In this document: positions 10,545 to 56,213 of the stretch, one piece after another
Position numbering within the stretch: position 1 is the first letter of the stretch
How the letters are laid out: each line of letters starts with the position of its first letter
From: Halobiforma nitratireducens JCM 10879
GTDB taxonomy: Archaea > Halobacteriota > Halobacteria > Halobacteriales > Natrialbaceae
Direction: 5' to 3'
Assembly: GCF_000337895.1 (NCBI RefSeq)
Contig: NZ_AOMA01000070.1
Coordinates: 25,039-89,038, forward strand
Length of the DNA: 64,000 nucleotides
Translations under genes and position numbers: made by a program
Notes under the pieces: generated by a model
What the model was told of the DNA's origin: nothing
Database searches by the model: none
Seen by the model: only the letters and a program-made list of their open reading frames with translations

Positions 10545-11452
10545 GCACAGTCAGACACTTCCTCGAGATCGACGACGTATCGACCGACGAACTGCGTGCG
10601 ATCCTCGATCGCGCAGACGAGTACAAACGCGCCCAGGCCGACGGCCAGGACCACGAGGACCTCGAAGGTCAGACGCTGGGCATGATCTTCCAGAAGCCAA
10701 GCACTCGGACGCGGGTCTCCTTCGAGACCGGACTGACACAACTCGGCGGTCACGCCGTTTTCCTCGGCGAAGACGACATTCAGCTGGGTCGTGGGGAGCC
10801 GCTGAAAGACACCTCGCGGACGCTCTCGCGGTACGTCGACGCCGTGATGGCTCGCGTGTTCAAACACGAGAACATCGAGGTGTTCGCCGACTACGCCGAC
10901 GTGCCGGTCGTCAACGGGCTGACCGACGACGCACACCCCTGCCAGACGCTCGCGGACTTACAGACGATCCGCGAACTCGAGGGCGGATTCGAGGACGTCG
11001 AGGCGGCCTGGATCGGCGACGGTAACAACGTCGCCCAGTCGTTTACCGTCGGCTGCGCGCTGACGGACATCGATCTGACGGTCGCGACGCCGGACGGGTA
11101 CGGACTCGACGACGACGTCGTCGAGCGCGCCCGCCAACTGGGTGGCGATCCGACGCTGACGGACGATCCCGTCGCGGCCGCGTCCGGCGCTGACGTCATC
11201 TACACCGACGTCTGGATCAGCATGGGACAGGAGGACGAACGCGACGTCCGGATGAACGCCTTCGAGGGGTTCCAAGTCTGCTCGGACCTGCTCTCTCAGG
11301 CACCCGACGCGTCGGTGATGCACTGTCTGCCGGCCCACCGCGGCGAGGAGATCACCGACGAGGTCATCGAGAGCGATCGCTCGATCGTCTTCGACCAAGC
11401 CGAGAACCGACTACACGCACAGAAGGCGCTTCTGAGTTGGCTCCTCGAGTGA
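10541..11452 (+). CDS. argF: Ornithine carbamoyltransferase
   Basis: A 303-residue enzyme that makes citrulline from ornithine and carbamoyl phosphate, the link from the LysW part of the pathway to ArgG. It shows the carbamoyl-phosphate loop FQKPSTRTRVSFE near residues 48-60, HPCQTLADL for the second domain and the catalytic HCLPAHRGEE. Together with the genes before it, this completes glutamate-to-arginine synthesis in one locus. The ATG at 10541 overlaps the argE stop. Confidence 0.96.
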   Translation: MSTVRHFLEIDDVSTDELRAILDRADEYKRAQADGQDHEDLEGQTLGMIFQKPSTRTRVSFETGLTQLGGHAVFLGEDDIQLGRGEPLKDTSRTLSRYVDAVMARVFKHENIEVFADYADVPVVNGLTDDAHPCQTLADLQTIRELEGGFEDVEAAWIGDGNNVAQSFTVGCALTDIDLTVATPDGYGLDDDVVERARQLGGDPTLTDDPVAAASGADVIYTDVWISMGQEDERDVRMNAFEGFQVCSDLLSQAPDASVMHCLPAHRGEEITDEVIESDRSIVFDQAENRLHAQKALLSWLLE

Positions 11453-46302: not shown

Positions 46303-46530
46303 CTCCCGGTCGACCACCGAACCCCAGTCGAGACGTCGGTTTCGACTCGAGCCCCGAGCAGCGGACAGTGCAACGACCGAATCGGTGTCGATCCAAGCGC
46401 GAGGGAAGCGGCGGTGGAACCGGGGGATTTCCGACCGACAGCCGACGGGAAACGAGCGTTCCAGGCGAAACTGGGGGGAAACGGAAATAGAGAACGCGAG
46501 GACGACGAACTGACGAGTCGGGCGGCGACG
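46303..46530. other. Gap between convergent conserved genes
   Basis: No ORF with domain character. A weak ORB-like stretch (TTCCAGGCGAAACTGGGGGG, 46459-46478) lies here, about 3.8 kb from the origin; it could be chance. Confidence 0.3.
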
Positions 46531-50281: not shown

Positions 50282-50307
50282 CCCCCACCCCTTCGTTTCA
50301 ACTGGAA
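50282..50307 (-). other. Origin recognition box A
   Basis: On the minus strand it begins TTCCAGTTGAAACGAAGGGG, followed by a G-rich tail (TGGGGG). It differs from box B at one of 26 positions. It is the predicted Orc1/Cdc6 binding site on the oapA side. Confidence 0.88.
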
Positions 50308-50439
50308 GCCAGCGAAGCGACAGTGGTGCCATCGGTGTGGACCGAGGTGAGTCAGACCCCGATTTCGCCTCGAGACGGCGTTCTGGAGGGTCAGAGTGCG
50401 AAAACCCCGGAAAAAGACGGGTCTAGTAACTCGAGCCGA

Positions 50440-50550
50440 CACAGCCGGGAGTTCTAGTTCGAACTAGTAACTTAATCCAACTTCTCTAGTAAAAATTCTA
50501 TTTTGCTAGGAGTGCGGATACTGTTTCTACTCCAAAGTCATAAAGCTCCT
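50440..50550. other. AT-rich unwinding-element candidate
   Basis: The most AT-rich part of the origin lies between boxes A and B. It contains the perfect palindrome CTAGTTCGAACTAG (50454-50467) and the repeated motif CTAGTAA at 50423, 50464 and 50486. It is placed and composed as a duplex unwinding element. Confidence 0.6.
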
Positions 50551-50591
50551 TGTTCTAGAGACCCCCCCTCCCCACCCTTCCTGTTCAGCAG

Positions 50592-50617
50592 TTCCAGTTG
50601 AAACGAGGGGGTGGGGG
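50592..50617 (+). other. Origin recognition box B
   Basis: On the plus strand it begins TTCCAGTTGAAACGAGGGGG and is followed by TGGGGG. It is opposite in orientation to box A, 285 bases away, with the AT-rich zone between. A C-rich tract at 50561-50578 just before it looks like the G-tail of a further degenerate box. Confidence 0.88.
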
Positions 50618-51363: not shown

Positions 51364-51385
51364 CTCCACTCGAAATGAGGGGGTA
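51364..51385 (+). other. Degenerate origin recognition box before orc1
   Basis: CTCCACTCGAAATGAGGGGG matches box B at 17 of 22 positions and ends 13 bases before the orc1 ATG, where binding could also autoregulate orc1. Confidence 0.5.
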
Positions 51386-51397
51386 CGTGTACGACGG

Positions 51398-53233
51398 ATG
51401 TCAGACGACAATATGGATACGACCGATCCGGAGAACGTCGACGTCGGGACTACCGACGGGTTTTCGACGGATCTCGGCGGGACGAACTTCGGAAACGAAC
51501 TCGGCGACGGCGAGGACGAACCGAAACAAGGGCTGTTCGACGACCTGCTCAGCGGCGAACCTATCTTCGAGAACAAGGAGGTGCTCAGACCTTCCTACAC
51601 GCCCCACGAACTACCCCACCGTAGCGATCAGATCAACAAGATGGCGACCATTCTCGTCGCCGCACTTCGCGGCGAAACGCCGTCTAATATCCTGATCTAC
51701 GGAAAAACCGGGACTGGAAAGACCGCCAGCGCGAAGTTCGTGAGCAAGGAACTCGAGAGCACCTCCCAGAAGTACAGTGTCCCCTGTGACGTCGAGTACA
51801 TCAACTGCGAGGTAACGGACACCCAGTATCGCGTTCTCGCACAACTCGCGAACAAGTTCATCGAGAAGAACGAGGAACGGATCGAGCAACGGATTTCCTC
51901 CCTCGAGTCACTGCTTGCGGAGCTCGACGACTACGAGCCCGTGTCCGAGCACGACGCTGATCCCGACGTAGCTGGGGAGGCCGGCGACGACCTCTTCGAG
52001 GTGTCCGGTGACGACTCCGACGGTATCCGTGACTCGACCACCTCCGTTTCGACTGCAGGTGAGGAAGAACTGCAGTCTGGCGATTTCACAGCTGAAACGG
52101 AGGGGTCGAAACCGGACACAGCGGAGAGCACCGAAGGGGAGGCCGGAACCGGGGGTACCGAACCCGCTTCGGGTGACGGGCTCCGGTCCGAAGCAAATGC
52201 CGCCGACCCCACTGCGTCGGGGCCGGATGTCGGGGCCGGATCAGACAGCGGGCTCCCCTCAGCGCATCCGCTCGAGTCGACACCGTTCGAGTCCCGCGAG
52301 GAAGTCGAACAGCGAATCGAATCGCTCGAGGAGGACAGCGAGTCCTTCGAGGAAGTTCCGATGACGGGATGGCCGACCGACCGCGTTTACAACGTCTTCT
52401 TCGATGCGGTCGATTACGACGAACGTGTCGTCGTTATCATGCTCGACGAGATCGACAAACTCGTCGAGAAAAGCGGTGACGACACTCTGTACAACCTCTC
52501 GCGGATGAACTCCGAACTCGAGAACTCGCGGGTCTCGATCATCGGTATCTCGAACGACCTGAAGTTTACCGACTTCCTCGATCCCCGCGTCAAGTCCTCG
52601 CTGGGCGAAGAAGAGATCGTCTTCCCGCCGTACGACGCGAACCAACTCCGGGACATCCTGGAACATCGCTCGGACGTCGCGTTCAAGCAGGGAGCCCTCT
52701 CGGAAGACGTGATCCCGCTGTGTGCGGCCTTCGCGGCACAGGAACACGGGGACGCACGCCGTGCGCTCGATCTGCTTCGGACTGCCGGGGAGCTCGCCGA
52801 GCGGTCCCAGGCCGAGACGATCGTCGAGGAACACGTCCGACAGGCCCAGGACAAGATCGAACTCGACCGTGTCGTCGAGGTCGTCCGGACGCTCCCGACG
52901 CAGTCGAAACTCGTCCTCTTTGCGATCATCCTACTCGAGAAAAACGGTGTTCACAGCATCAACACCGGCGAGGTGTTCAACATCTACAAGCGCCTCTGTG
53001 AGGAGATCGACGCGGACGTACTCACGCAACGACGCGTGACCGATCTGATCAGCGAACTCGACATGCTCGGGATCGTCAACGCGGTCGTCGTCTCGAAAGG
53101 GCGGTACGGTCGAACCAAAGAGATCAGCCTCTCGGTCCCGCTCGAGGAGACCGAAGCGGTTCTCCTGTCGGATTCCCGTTTGAGCGACATCGACGACGTA
53201 CAGCCGTTCGTCCAGGCACGGTTCGAGAACTGA
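51398..53233 (+). CDS. orc1: Orc1/Cdc6 replication initiator
   Basis: A 611-residue AAA+ initiator that recognises ORBs and recruits MCM. It has Walker A ILIYGKTGTGKTASA (about 100-114), Walker B VVIMLDEIDKL, sensor ISNDLKFTDFLDPRVKSSL with the arginine finger region, and a C-terminal winged helix. Between the first ATPase half and Walker B lies a 150-residue acidic insert (about 178-325), larger than in most archaeal Orc1 proteins. The ATG at 51398 (MSDDNMDTTDPEN) is chosen over the upstream frame that crosses box C. It faces its origin. Confidence 0.95.
   Translation: MSDDNMDTTDPENVDVGTTDGFSTDLGGTNFGNELGDGEDEPKQGLFDDLLSGEPIFENKEVLRPSYTPHELPHRSDQINKMATILVAALRGETPSNILIYGKTGTGKTASAKFVSKELESTSQKYSVPCDVEYINCEVTDTQYRVLAQLANKFIEKNEERIEQRISSLESLLAELDDYEPVSEHDADPDVAGEAGDDLFEVSGDDSDGIRDSTTSVSTAGEEELQSGDFTAETEGSKPDTAESTEGEAGTGGTEPASGDGLRSEANAADPTASGPDVGAGSDSGLPSAHPLESTPFESREEVEQRIESLEEDSESFEEVPMTGWPTDRVYNVFFDAVDYDERVVVIMLDEIDKLVEKSGDDTLYNLSRMNSELENSRVSIIGISNDLKFTDFLDPRVKSSLGEEEIVFPPYDANQLRDILEHRSDVAFKQGALSEDVIPLCAAFAAQEHGDARRALDLLRTAGELAERSQAETIVEEHVRQAQDKIELDRVVEVVRTLPTQSKLVLFAIILLEKNGVHSINTGEVFNIYKRLCEEIDADVLTQRRVTDLISELDMLGIVNAVVVSKGRYGRTKEISLSVPLEETEAVLLSDSRLSDIDDVQPFVQARFEN
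52037..52106. other. ORB-like inverted pair inside orc1
   Basis: CCTCCGTTTCGACTGCAGG (52041-52059; minus orientation) and CAGCTGAAACGGAGGGGT (52089-52106; plus orientation). The second matches the ORB core at 16 of 18 positions. Both lie in the low-complexity acidic insert of the initiator, in the same mutual orientation as boxes A and B. Confidence 0.45.
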
Positions 53234-53406: not shown

Positions 53407-53422
53407 CGACCCCTCCGTTTCA
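53407..53422 (-). other. Partial ORB downstream of orc1
   Basis: CGACCCCTCCGTTTCA; its reverse complement TGAAACGGAGGGGTCG is identical over 16 bases to the ORB-like sequence within orc1 (52093-52108). It lies in the 246-base gap before the signal peptidase gene. Confidence 0.4.
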
Positions 53423-53479
53423 CCTCGAGACGAGACGAATTATTCGCAAGCGGGTAAAAACGGGGGTCGGGCGTTCGGA

Positions 53480-54514
53480 CTACGTTCGATATCGCCGAGC
53501 GAGTCCGACTCCCGCGGCCGCGATGCCGGCGCTACCGGCGACGGCGGCCGGGCCGAACGCGGGTCGTTCGGCGTTTTCGGGGCTCGTTGCCGTGCTGTCG
53601 ATCGTACTTCCGGCGGTCGACGCTGCTGTGATCCCGTCGACCGCTGGCGACGTGGCGGGGCCGCTCGCTTCGGCGAAGACTTCGTCGAACGTCAGTCGGA
53701 CGTGACCGAGCCACGGAATTCGGAACGTCGCCTTGCCGGTGACCCAGTCCGGACGTACCACGTCGGTCCTGGCACCACCCCGGTACTGGTCGTAGACGTT
53801 GTTGGCATCGCCTTTCGTGACGAACCCGTCGTGGTTGGCGGGGCAGGTAGCAATTTCCTCGCAGGTCGAGCCACCGACGTACTCCGCTTCCGCCTTGGTA
53901 TCGACCCAGTTCTCGCCTTCTTCGACCCAGAAGTGTGCCCGGTGTATCACGGGCGTCTGTAACTCGCTTCCGTCCGGCCTGAAGACGATCACGTCTCCCC
54001 CCTGTCCGAATTTCTCGTGGCTGCCGTCCTGGCCGTTCTCGAGGGTGACGACCCCGGTTCCTTCGGTGGGATCGTCGCCGACGAACCGATCTTCGTCGAC
54101 GACGAAGATCAGGTCGCCACGTTCCATGTTCGGCTGCATGCTGCCGCTCTCGACGGCGACCAGCGGTGGCCAGACGCCGCTGATCCCGAACAGCAACAGC
54201 CCGATGACGGCGACGATGGCGACGCTGCTGACGATATCGCGGGCGAACACGACGGGTTCGTCGTCCGACGTGAGAACGTAGCGGACGACCCCGTCGTCCT
54301 CGATGGTAACGCCGTCGTCGTTCGCGTCGGCTTCGTTCTTTCCGTTTCCGATCCTGCCTGGACCCGAGGGACCGTCACCCTCTTTCGGGGCTCGAGATCG
54401 TTCGTCGGTGCCGTCGGCTGCCGTCTCGTCGGGGGGTGACCCGCCGCGATCGGGTGGCCCGGATGGATCACCCTCGTCGTTCTCGTCGGACCCGCCGGCG
54501 TCGCGACCGCTCAT
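53480..54514 (-). CDS. sec11: Signal peptidase I (S26B, archaeal Sec11 type)
   Basis: A 344-residue membrane protease. A long acidic Pro/Gly-rich N-terminus (1-80) precedes the first helix (about 93-115). The catalytic Ser is in VAVESGSMQPNMERGDLI (Ser125), the archaeal His in TPVIHRAHFW and the conserved Asp in GFVTKGDANNVYD. A C-terminal Ala/Gly-rich helix is present. It cleaves signal peptides of Sec-exported proteins. ATG 54514. Confidence 0.9.
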   Translation of the reverse strand: MSGRDAGGSDENDEGDPSGPPDRGGSPPDETAADGTDERSRAPKEGDGPSGPGRIGNGKNEADANDDGVTIEDDGVVRYVLTSDDEPVVFARDIVSSVAIVAVIGLLLFGISGVWPPLVAVESGSMQPNMERGDLIFVVDEDRFVGDDPTEGTGVVTLENGQDGSHEKFGQGGDVIVFRPDGSELQTPVIHRAHFWVEEGENWVDTKAEAEYVGGSTCEEIATCPANHDGFVTKGDANNVYDQYRGGARTDVVRPDWVTGKATFRIPWLGHVRLTFDEVFAEASGPATSPAVDGITAASTAGSTIDSTATSPENAERPAFGPAAVAGSAGIAAAGVGLARRYRT

Positions 54515-54662
54515 TGCCACGCGTTTTGCCGGGGGCGGCAATCAACTTTCTGCTCGGGTCTGCCAGTTCCGAAGACTGGAACGAACGCGACCGGTGTCTT
54601 CACCGTCGGGCTGTGGCCGTCGATTCGCTACCCTTTTTTCTCCGGTCACGAATACGAGTCGT

Positions 54663-56213
54663 GTGCCACTCGAGGCCCCCGCCCGGATCGTCAGCGAACT
54701 CACGAGCCGTGGCTACAACGCCGAGCGCGAGGCGGTGACCCAGCTCGCGTCCGCCGACCAGACGGACGCTGTCCTCGAGCGGGTACTCGAGGAGCTCCCG
54801 GAAGACGCGCTGGTCGTTCGAACGGAGCACGTCGAGTCGGCGCTGGCGGGTCTCGACTCCGAATCCGTGATAAGCTCGTCCCGGTCCGAATCGGACCCCT
54901 CCGTTTCAACTGGAACTGCCGACCCCACGGACGGTGGATCGGTGTCCTCGTCTCCAGTTGAAACGGGGGGGTATTCGGGCGGATCGCGTGAGCCGACCGA
55001 TCCCGATCTGCGGTCCCTCGAGATCGTCGGCGATATGACCGGCGAGAGTACGGGAACCGGTGAGTACGAGGACTTCGTCTCGGTGTTTCGGGACCGACTC
55101 GAGAAGCTCGGATCGAAGCTTCGGGGACGGGTCAACCACCGGCCGGCAACGGCCATCGAGGACATGCCCGGCGGCAGCGACGTCGCGATGGTCGGGCTGG
55201 TCAACGACGTACGCTCGACGGCGAGCGGCCACTGGTTGGTCGAACTCGAGGACGCCACCGGGACGTTCCCCTGGCTGGTGATGAAAGATCGGGAGTACGT
55301 CGATCTCGTGGACGAGTTGCTCTGTGACGAAGCCCTCGCGATGCAGGGAACGCTCTCTGACGACTCCGGGATCGCCTTCGTCGACTCGATGTACTTCCCC
55401 GACGTTCCGCGGACCTACGAACCCTCGACGGCGGATCGTCACGTGCAGGCGGCACTGATCAGCGACGTCCACGTCGGTAGCGAGGAGTTCATGGAAGACG
55501 CCTGGAACGCCTTCGCCGACTGGCTCCACACCGAACAGGCCCAGCACGTCGAGTACTTGCTGATCGCCGGCGACATGGTCGAAGGCGTCGGCGTCTACCC
55601 GGACCAGGACGAGGAACTCGAGATCGTCGACATTTACGAACAGTACGAGGCGTTCAACGAGCACCTCAAACGGGTACCGGGTGACCTCGAGATCGTTATG
55701 ATCCCGGGCAACCACGACGCGGTGCGGCTCGCGGAACCCCAGCCTGGATTCGACGAGGAACTGCGCTCGATCATGTCGGCCCACGACCCCCGTATCGTGA
55801 GCAATCCCTCGACGGTCACCGTCGAGGGCGTCTCCGTGCTGATGTACCACGGGGTCTCGCTGGACGAGGTTATCGCCGAACTCCCCGAAGACAAAGCCAG
55901 CTACGACGATCCGCACAAGGCGATGTACCAGCTCCTGAAAAAACGCCACGTCGCGCCGCAGTTCGGTGGCCACACGCGACTCGCCCCCGAAGAGGAGGAC
56001 TACCTGGTCGTCGAGGACGTCCCCGATGTCTTCCATACGGGCCACGTCCACAAACTCGGGTTCGGGAAGTATCACAACGTACTCGCGATCAACTCGGGCT
56101 GTTGGCAGGCCCAGACGGATTTCCAGAAGAGTGTCAACATCGATCCCGACGCCGGCTACGCGCCGATCGTCGACCTGGATACGCTAGACGTGACGGTCCA
56201 GAAGTTCAGTTGA
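54663..56213 (+). CDS. polB: DNA polymerase D small subunit (DP1, exonuclease)
   Basis: A 516-residue protein with a calcineurin-like phosphodiesterase core: ALISDVHVGSEEF, LIAGDMVEGV, MIPGNHDAVRLAEP and HTGHVHKLG, the Mre11-like 3'-5' exonuclease of archaeal PolD. An OB-fold region precedes it (AMVGLVNDVRSTASGHWLVE). Start is GTG 54663 (MPLEAPARIVSELTSRGYNA), matching the family N-terminus. A low-complexity linker (about 65-120) encodes two ORB-like DNA sequences. The stop overlaps the convergent tetR stop by eight bases. Confidence 0.92.
   Translation: MPLEAPARIVSELTSRGYNAEREAVTQLASADQTDAVLERVLEELPEDALVVRTEHVESALAGLDSESVISSSRSESDPSVSTGTADPTDGGSVSSSPVETGGYSGGSREPTDPDLRSLEIVGDMTGESTGTGEYEDFVSVFRDRLEKLGSKLRGRVNHRPATAIEDMPGGSDVAMVGLVNDVRSTASGHWLVELEDATGTFPWLVMKDREYVDLVDELLCDEALAMQGTLSDDSGIAFVDSMYFPDVPRTYEPSTADRHVQAALISDVHVGSEEFMEDAWNAFADWLHTEQAQHVEYLLIAGDMVEGVGVYPDQDEELEIVDIYEQYEAFNEHLKRVPGDLEIVMIPGNHDAVRLAEPQPGFDEELRSIMSAHDPRIVSNPSTVTVEGVSVLMYHGVSLDEVIAELPEDKASYDDPHKAMYQLLKKRHVAPQFGGHTRLAPEEEDYLVVEDVPDVFHTGHVHKLGFGKYHNVLAINSGCWQAQTDFQKSVNIDPDAGYAPIVDLDTLDVTVQKFS
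54895..54972. other. Inverted pair of strong ORB elements within polB
   Basis: ACCCCTCCGTTTCAACTGGA (54895-54914, minus orientation) matches box A at 20 of 21 positions when one further base is included. TCCAGTTGAAACGGGGGGGT (54953-54972, plus orientation) matches box B at 19 of 21 including the base before it. They are separated by about 36 bases and oriented like the two main origin boxes. Confidence 0.8.

Follow-up and report, generated by a model that had tools for sequence, protein, structure and literature searches.

The gene for the small subunit of DNA polymerase D (DP1, encoded by polB) in Halobiforma nitratireducens JCM 10879 carries, inside its own reading frame, an inverted pair of origin recognition boxes (ORBs) of the type found at the nearby replication origin oriC1. 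We regard it as almost certain that this pair is a real ORB-type element selected as DNA. As to function, the reading that best fits our data, held with roughly even confidence on the strength of comparative sequence analysis, is that the pair constitutes a satellite Orc1-binding locus that would hold the initiator and so exert negative control over oriC1. We found no earlier description of intragenic ORBs, or of ORBs in DP1, in the literature searched, a search that left many subscription papers outside its reach and the question of priority uncertain.

Results

An inverted ORB pair in the DP1 linker

The window, by which we mean the whole 64,000-nucleotide stretch of DNA analyzed, contains oriC1 and, beyond it, orc1/cdc6, then a gene resembling signal peptidases that is read from the opposite strand, and then polB. 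Two ORBs assigned by box match, one on the left (50287–50307, minus strand) and one on the right (50592–50612, plus strand), belong to the origin and enclose a 284-bp region (50308–50591) that is 47.5% AT overall and 74% AT in its best 50-bp window. The orc1/cdc6 gene of this origin (51413–53233, plus strand, start codon approximate) matches the Pfam families Cdc6_C and Cdc6_lid; the gene that follows (53480–54541, minus strand) is without a Pfam match, and we take it to be sec11 from the known gbp-cdc6-sec-polA synteny. Finally, polB itself (54663–56213, plus strand, GTG start inferred from relatives) matches DNA_pol_E_B and Metallophos, in agreement with an earlier note on this DNA that had assigned the gene to the small subunit of PolD.

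About 235 nt into polB, in the part that encodes a disordered linker, lie a minus-strand box (54895–54915, TTCCAGTTGAAACGGAGGGGT), identical at 20 of 21 positions to the left oriC1 box, and a plus-strand box (54952–54972, CTCCAGTTGAAACGGGGGGGT), identical at 19 of 21 positions to the right one. Both have the ORB core TTCCANNNGAAAC with its 3' G-string; they are inverted, with the G-strings pointing outward as at oriC1, and stand 36 bp apart at a distance of 4.3 kb from the origin. Through the minus box, which is conserved in relatives, the frame encodes ...DPSVSTGT..., and through the plus box SPVETGG. The earlier note had given these same positions, match counts, gap, orientation and approximate distance, and all are exact; its further statement that the layout repeats that of the oriC1 boxes is correct for orientation but not for the distance (36 versus 284 bp), nor for the AT-rich element, which is missing here.

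When the query TTCCAGTTGAAACGGGGGG was compared with the entire 3.69 Mb assembly, the four best matches were the two oriC1 boxes and the two DP1 boxes. Allowing at most two mismatches, the ORB pattern occurs eight times within the window against 0.17 expected. The assembly as a whole has seven exact 19-mer ORBs, of which five share a contig with the window.

The pair is conserved across much of the haloarchaeal class

We collected 80 named haloarchaeal DP1 loci for a box scan, and most of their linkers proved to contain the inverted pair, at a recurring offset. A genome-wide search for divergent cores with 36–54 bp between them, which used exact patterns and yields a lower bound, detected the pair in at least 160 of 392 genomes of the class, distributed over 49 of 86 genera. 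A control pattern gave no match in the 392 genomes, and a chance origin was dropped on these grounds. Pair length is 68 in nearly all of the matches listed (65 or 80 in a few), and the pair almost always occupies a single place per genome. Its position relative to DP1 was checked in 32 of the 160 genomes in addition to the collected loci; in 31 of these 32, which represent several families, it directly precedes the conserved core of DP1. The one exception, a 75-bp pair in genome G221 (family f2), lies 3.5 kb from DP1 and was not counted as a DP1 pair. Two pairs in genome G116 most likely reflect an assembly duplication; two contigs of one Natronorubrum (L038 and L039) carry the same region.

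Alignment of 16 loci from several families confines the invariant columns to the two boxes. The pair is not universal, one or both DP1 boxes being degenerate in Haloferax, Halorubrum and the tested family f2, and it was not found in approximately 164 genomes of the same phylum outside the class, a result that led us to drop a deep archaeal ancestry. All of these genomes are related by descent, such that the loci do not count as independent tests.

The boxes are maintained as DNA

To score the boxes, we derived a weight matrix exclusively from oriC1 sites, with DP1 sites left out, and generated 200 synonymous versions of each DP1 linker by sampling codons according to local usage. The two DP1 boxes of the window score 29.3 and 22.5, as compared with 26–35 for the oriC1 sites among those listed, and recoded linkers scored with the same matrix average −11, with a plus-strand maximum of 13. 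At nearly every Natrialbaceae locus, the real boxes beat all or all but one of the recoded linkers on both strands (0–1 of 200). When 78 DP1 genes were aligned by codon, the four most codon-biased conserved columns, out of 425, all fell within the boxes: valine as GTT in 50 of 50 (usage 9%) and threonine as ACT in 61 of 63 (8%), followed by proline as CCA in 68 of 70 (11%) and glycine as GGA in 62 of 68 (13%). Glutamate as GAA (74 of 74) ranks seventh. Because the rest of DP1 has evolved on the same tree, relatedness alone cannot explain this contrast. Moreover, the free NNN triplet of the ORB coincides with a codon in the plus box, and this codon varies among V, A, P, D, L, S, H and G with the ORB retained. 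The pair is thus kept as DNA sequence despite both silent and amino-acid-altering substitutions, and the comparison of silent positions in related polB linkers that had been suggested as a check finds the motif strongly conserved as DNA.

These data bear on two explanations in which the ORBs would be incidental. The peptide DPSVSTG-x11-SPVETKG is more conserved than the linker around it, as would be expected if protein-level constraint had selected the peptide and generated the ORBs as a by-product; against this stand the fixation of the rare codons GTT, ACT and CCA, the destruction of the sites by synonymous recoding, and the acceptance of eight amino acids at the free codon without loss of the ORB. 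Peptide selection alone was rejected on the codon-usage and recoding tests, and we give protein-level constraint almost no credence. Alternatively, selection might have favored the inverted repeat for the stem it would form in polB mRNA, given that the two arms in the window are near-perfect reverse complements and that agreement between their NNN triplets across loci is somewhat higher (0.72) than after shuffling (0.64, p 0.003). Arm positions 14–16, however, do not co-vary (p 0.61), the arms are mismatched in many loci, Halorubrum retains a single arm only, and the sequence that is preserved is the oriC1 box itself. The missing co-variation and the single-armed lineage led us to reject an mRNA hairpin, which we likewise consider extremely improbable.

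Spacing is fixed and the locus is GC-rich

The start-to-start distance between the DP1 boxes (19-mer register) is 55 in 62 of 78 loci, with three loci at 52 and three at 67, and this spacing is constant although the linker varies in length from 110 to 220 codons. The spacer (54916–54951 in the window, where it is 31% AT) accordingly has a fixed length across the class and a variable sequence. The oriC1 boxes share with the DP1 pair the box itself, the divergent orientation and the halophile G-string, but differ from it in that their starts lie 180–335 bp apart across genomes and enclose AT-rich DNA, whereas the DP1 gap is 36 bp and GC-rich. In 49 loci compared, no AT-rich element was found at the DP1 pair: the spacer is 32.5% AT against 50% between the oriC1 boxes, and the best 50-bp window reaches 47% AT in the 700-bp DP1 flanks against 70% at oriC1. 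The pair hence lacks the AT-rich unwinding element between inverted ORBs that characterizes archaeal origins.

Across genera, the inter-ORB distances at oriC1 show a period of ~10.8–11 bp (R 0.47, 48 genus-unique values) and cluster at 300–304, 313–315, 321–325 and 334–335, as if helical phase were kept; related genomes share spacings, and we do not rely on this phasing.

ORBs cluster around oriC1

Linkage of DP1 to the origin varies. DP1 is found ~37 kb from oriC1 in Natrarchaeobius AArcht7, 36–38 kb in Halobellus, ~25 kb in Halomicrococcus and ~12 kb in Haladaptatus, and the pair or its boxes are retained in all four of these lineages, in which DP1 is 12–38 kb away. Seven largely complete genomes together have 36 exact ORBs outside the oriC1 core, and 31 of these fall within 110 kb of oriC1, a region that amounts to ~5% of the genome. 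The DP1 boxes share two features with titration loci, in that they lie outside the origin core and are close enough to the origin to be doubled soon after initiation. Each DP1 locus has two strong boxes.

Further ORBs accompany orc1. An ORB at the 5' end of the gene, which has two mismatches in the window (51364–51383, plus strand), is present in nearly all related loci, where it is usually stronger than the window's copy, and may possibly serve autoregulation. Within the orc1 linker, the window has a degenerate ORB (52086–52105, plus strand) that encodes TAETEGS, or SPVETEGS in relatives, together with a degenerate inverted partner (52040–52058, minus strand) that encodes SVSTAGEE. Of 70 loci, 27 have an orc1-linker ORB in the same frame and with the same SPVETEG-like cassette as in DP1, the plus box being stronger there than in the window.

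A third location is intergenic. The fifth-best ORB of the H. nitratireducens genome lies outside the window, 48 bp after a tRNA-Gln(CTG) gene (contig position 10601, which is position 2603 of locus L120, minus strand), and a strong ORB 38–54 bp downstream of tRNA-Gln(CTG), on the same strand, is present in 120 of 392 haloarchaeal genomes, all from two families, with no match for the control. Further loci of this kind are L121, L021, L077, L081, L084 and L126–L145. In 14 of 24 sites inspected, the best inverted partner, usually weak, stands at a distance of 44, shorter by 11 bp than the DP1 spacing. This tRNA-Gln satellite is apparently unreported before. Halorubrum has lost the minus ORB of DP1 and many of its members have the tRNA-Gln site, while in Haloferax the DP1 boxes are degenerate and the tRNA-Gln ORB is perfect; this pattern is as expected if the satellites are partly interchangeable.

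Discussion

How archaea restrain initiation at oriC1 is poorly known, and the worked case in the literature searched, oriC2D, concerns a different origin. This ORB-rich region of Haloarcula hispanica is itself unable to replicate and restrains oriC2, with an effect that scales with ORB number (PMC3936714). Like the DP1 pair, oriC2D (downstream of cdc6E) consists of ORBs set apart from the origin core and close to both an origin and an initiator gene; it has no origin activity of its own, and its negative control of the origin has been attributed to initiator titration (PMC3936714). Unlike the DP1 pair, it is intergenic, contains 11 ORBs and serves Cdc6E and oriC2, whereas the DP1 element is one inverted pair of the oriC1 box type, placed in a protein-coding gene and conserved across much of the class. 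A bacterial counterpart is datA of Escherichia coli, which has IHF and ATP-hydrolysis parts. As cited in PMC3936714, datA groups several initiator boxes at a site away from the origin, a feature it shares with the DP1 pair, and lowers initiator activity at the origin; it differs from the DP1 pair in having the unrelated initiator DnaA, an intergenic position and more boxes. By analogy, negative control of the datA or oriC2D kind is the reading that best suits the DP1 pair.

In such a scheme, the DP1 reading frame would carry the two boxes as a passenger, and two oriC1-type Orc1 molecules would bind them head to head at a fixed separation. Lying near oriC1, the locus would double soon after initiation and draw Orc1 off the origin, restraining re-initiation, and it may act jointly with the remaining ORBs near the origin, namely those at the 5' end of orc1, in its linker and after tRNA-Gln; a link to transcription of polB could exist in addition. 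Titration is favored by the clustering of strong ORBs around oriC1, the persistence of the pair after DP1 moves and the retention of different satellites in different lineages, and negative control of oriC1 by the lack of an unwinding element, the proximity to the origin and the partial interchangeability of satellites. Among the three roles that the earlier note had proposed, Orc1 titration, with binding inferred, accordingly appears the best supported. Some features sit poorly with it: two sites are few for a pure titrator, given the 11 of oriC2D, neither a fixed spacing nor residence in one gene would be needed, and the pair is not present in every lineage.

Control of transcription from within the gene, in which Orc1 bound inside polB would block or modulate RNA polymerase and thereby make PolD synthesis track the level of free Orc1, and the ORB cassette within orc1 would be the matching autoregulatory site, is the chief alternative, although we consider it rather unlikely. 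The pair stays in polB even where polB no longer adjoins oriC1, and both the in-frame SPVET-G cassette of the orc1 linker and the ORB at the orc1 5' end fit this idea. Yet the distance from the polB start codon to the pair varies from ~190 to 465 nt, a single roadblock has no need of an inverted pair of fixed spacing, and the intergenic tRNA-Gln ORB, which has no polymerase gene, indicates that satellites need not regulate polB. We think it somewhat less likely again that the pair is instead a structural site, where an Orc1 pair in a fixed nucleoprotein complex would contact oriC1 by handcuffing or looping, or organize the origin domain. The clustering of strong ORBs, the periodic oriC1 distances and the inverted spacings of 55 (DP1) and 44 (tRNA-Gln), about one helical turn apart, are consistent with such a complex, but some lineages have a spacing of 52 or a single box, the phasing comes from related genomes, and its extrapolation hinges on the exact period. 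Lower still do we rate an auxiliary or dormant origin, or an extra helicase-loading site. The divergent orientation is that of oriC1, and the ORBs of Sulfolobus each bind a single Orc1-1 molecule in a polar manner and, when inverted, direct MCM to the intervening DNA (PMC12141716); set against this are the 36-bp separation of the boxes, the GC-rich spacer and flanks, and the lack of origin activity in the comparable ORB-rich oriC2D (PMC3936714). As the AT-rich unwinding element is missing, the auxiliary origin suggested in the earlier note was set aside.

A bolder form of the satellite reading, to which we assign appreciably less confidence than to restraint of oriC1 as such, would have the DP1, orc1 and tRNA-Gln sites form a dedicated and ancient Orc1-satellite set that, through a fixed inverted geometry, sets the frequency of initiation at oriC1 and ties in polymerase synthesis. 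If true, an archaeal initiator-control circuit would be written into a polymerase gene. The conserved element, with its stated geometry, makes the question of how oriC1 is kept in check directly testable, since the boxes can be erased by synonymous codons with the polymerase protein left intact. The pair also offers a clear example of a DNA site, probably regulatory, that has long been preserved in evolution within a protein-coding gene, and it cautions that the conservation of linker peptides such as SPVETKG may reflect selection on the underlying DNA.

Additional ORB-like sites

Other ORB-like sequences were noted during the searches. A weak minus-strand site with two mismatches lies between orc1 and the signal-peptidase-like gene (53410–53429), with similar sites in several relatives, and a site with one mismatch (TTCCAGGCGAAACTGGGGGG) is located at 46459–46478, ~4 kb to the left of oriC1. 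Elsewhere in the same assembly, two identical exact ORBs of another triplet type (TCCACGCGAAACGAGGGGG; C99, position 37058, and C105, position 3680) probably belong to other origins or replicons.
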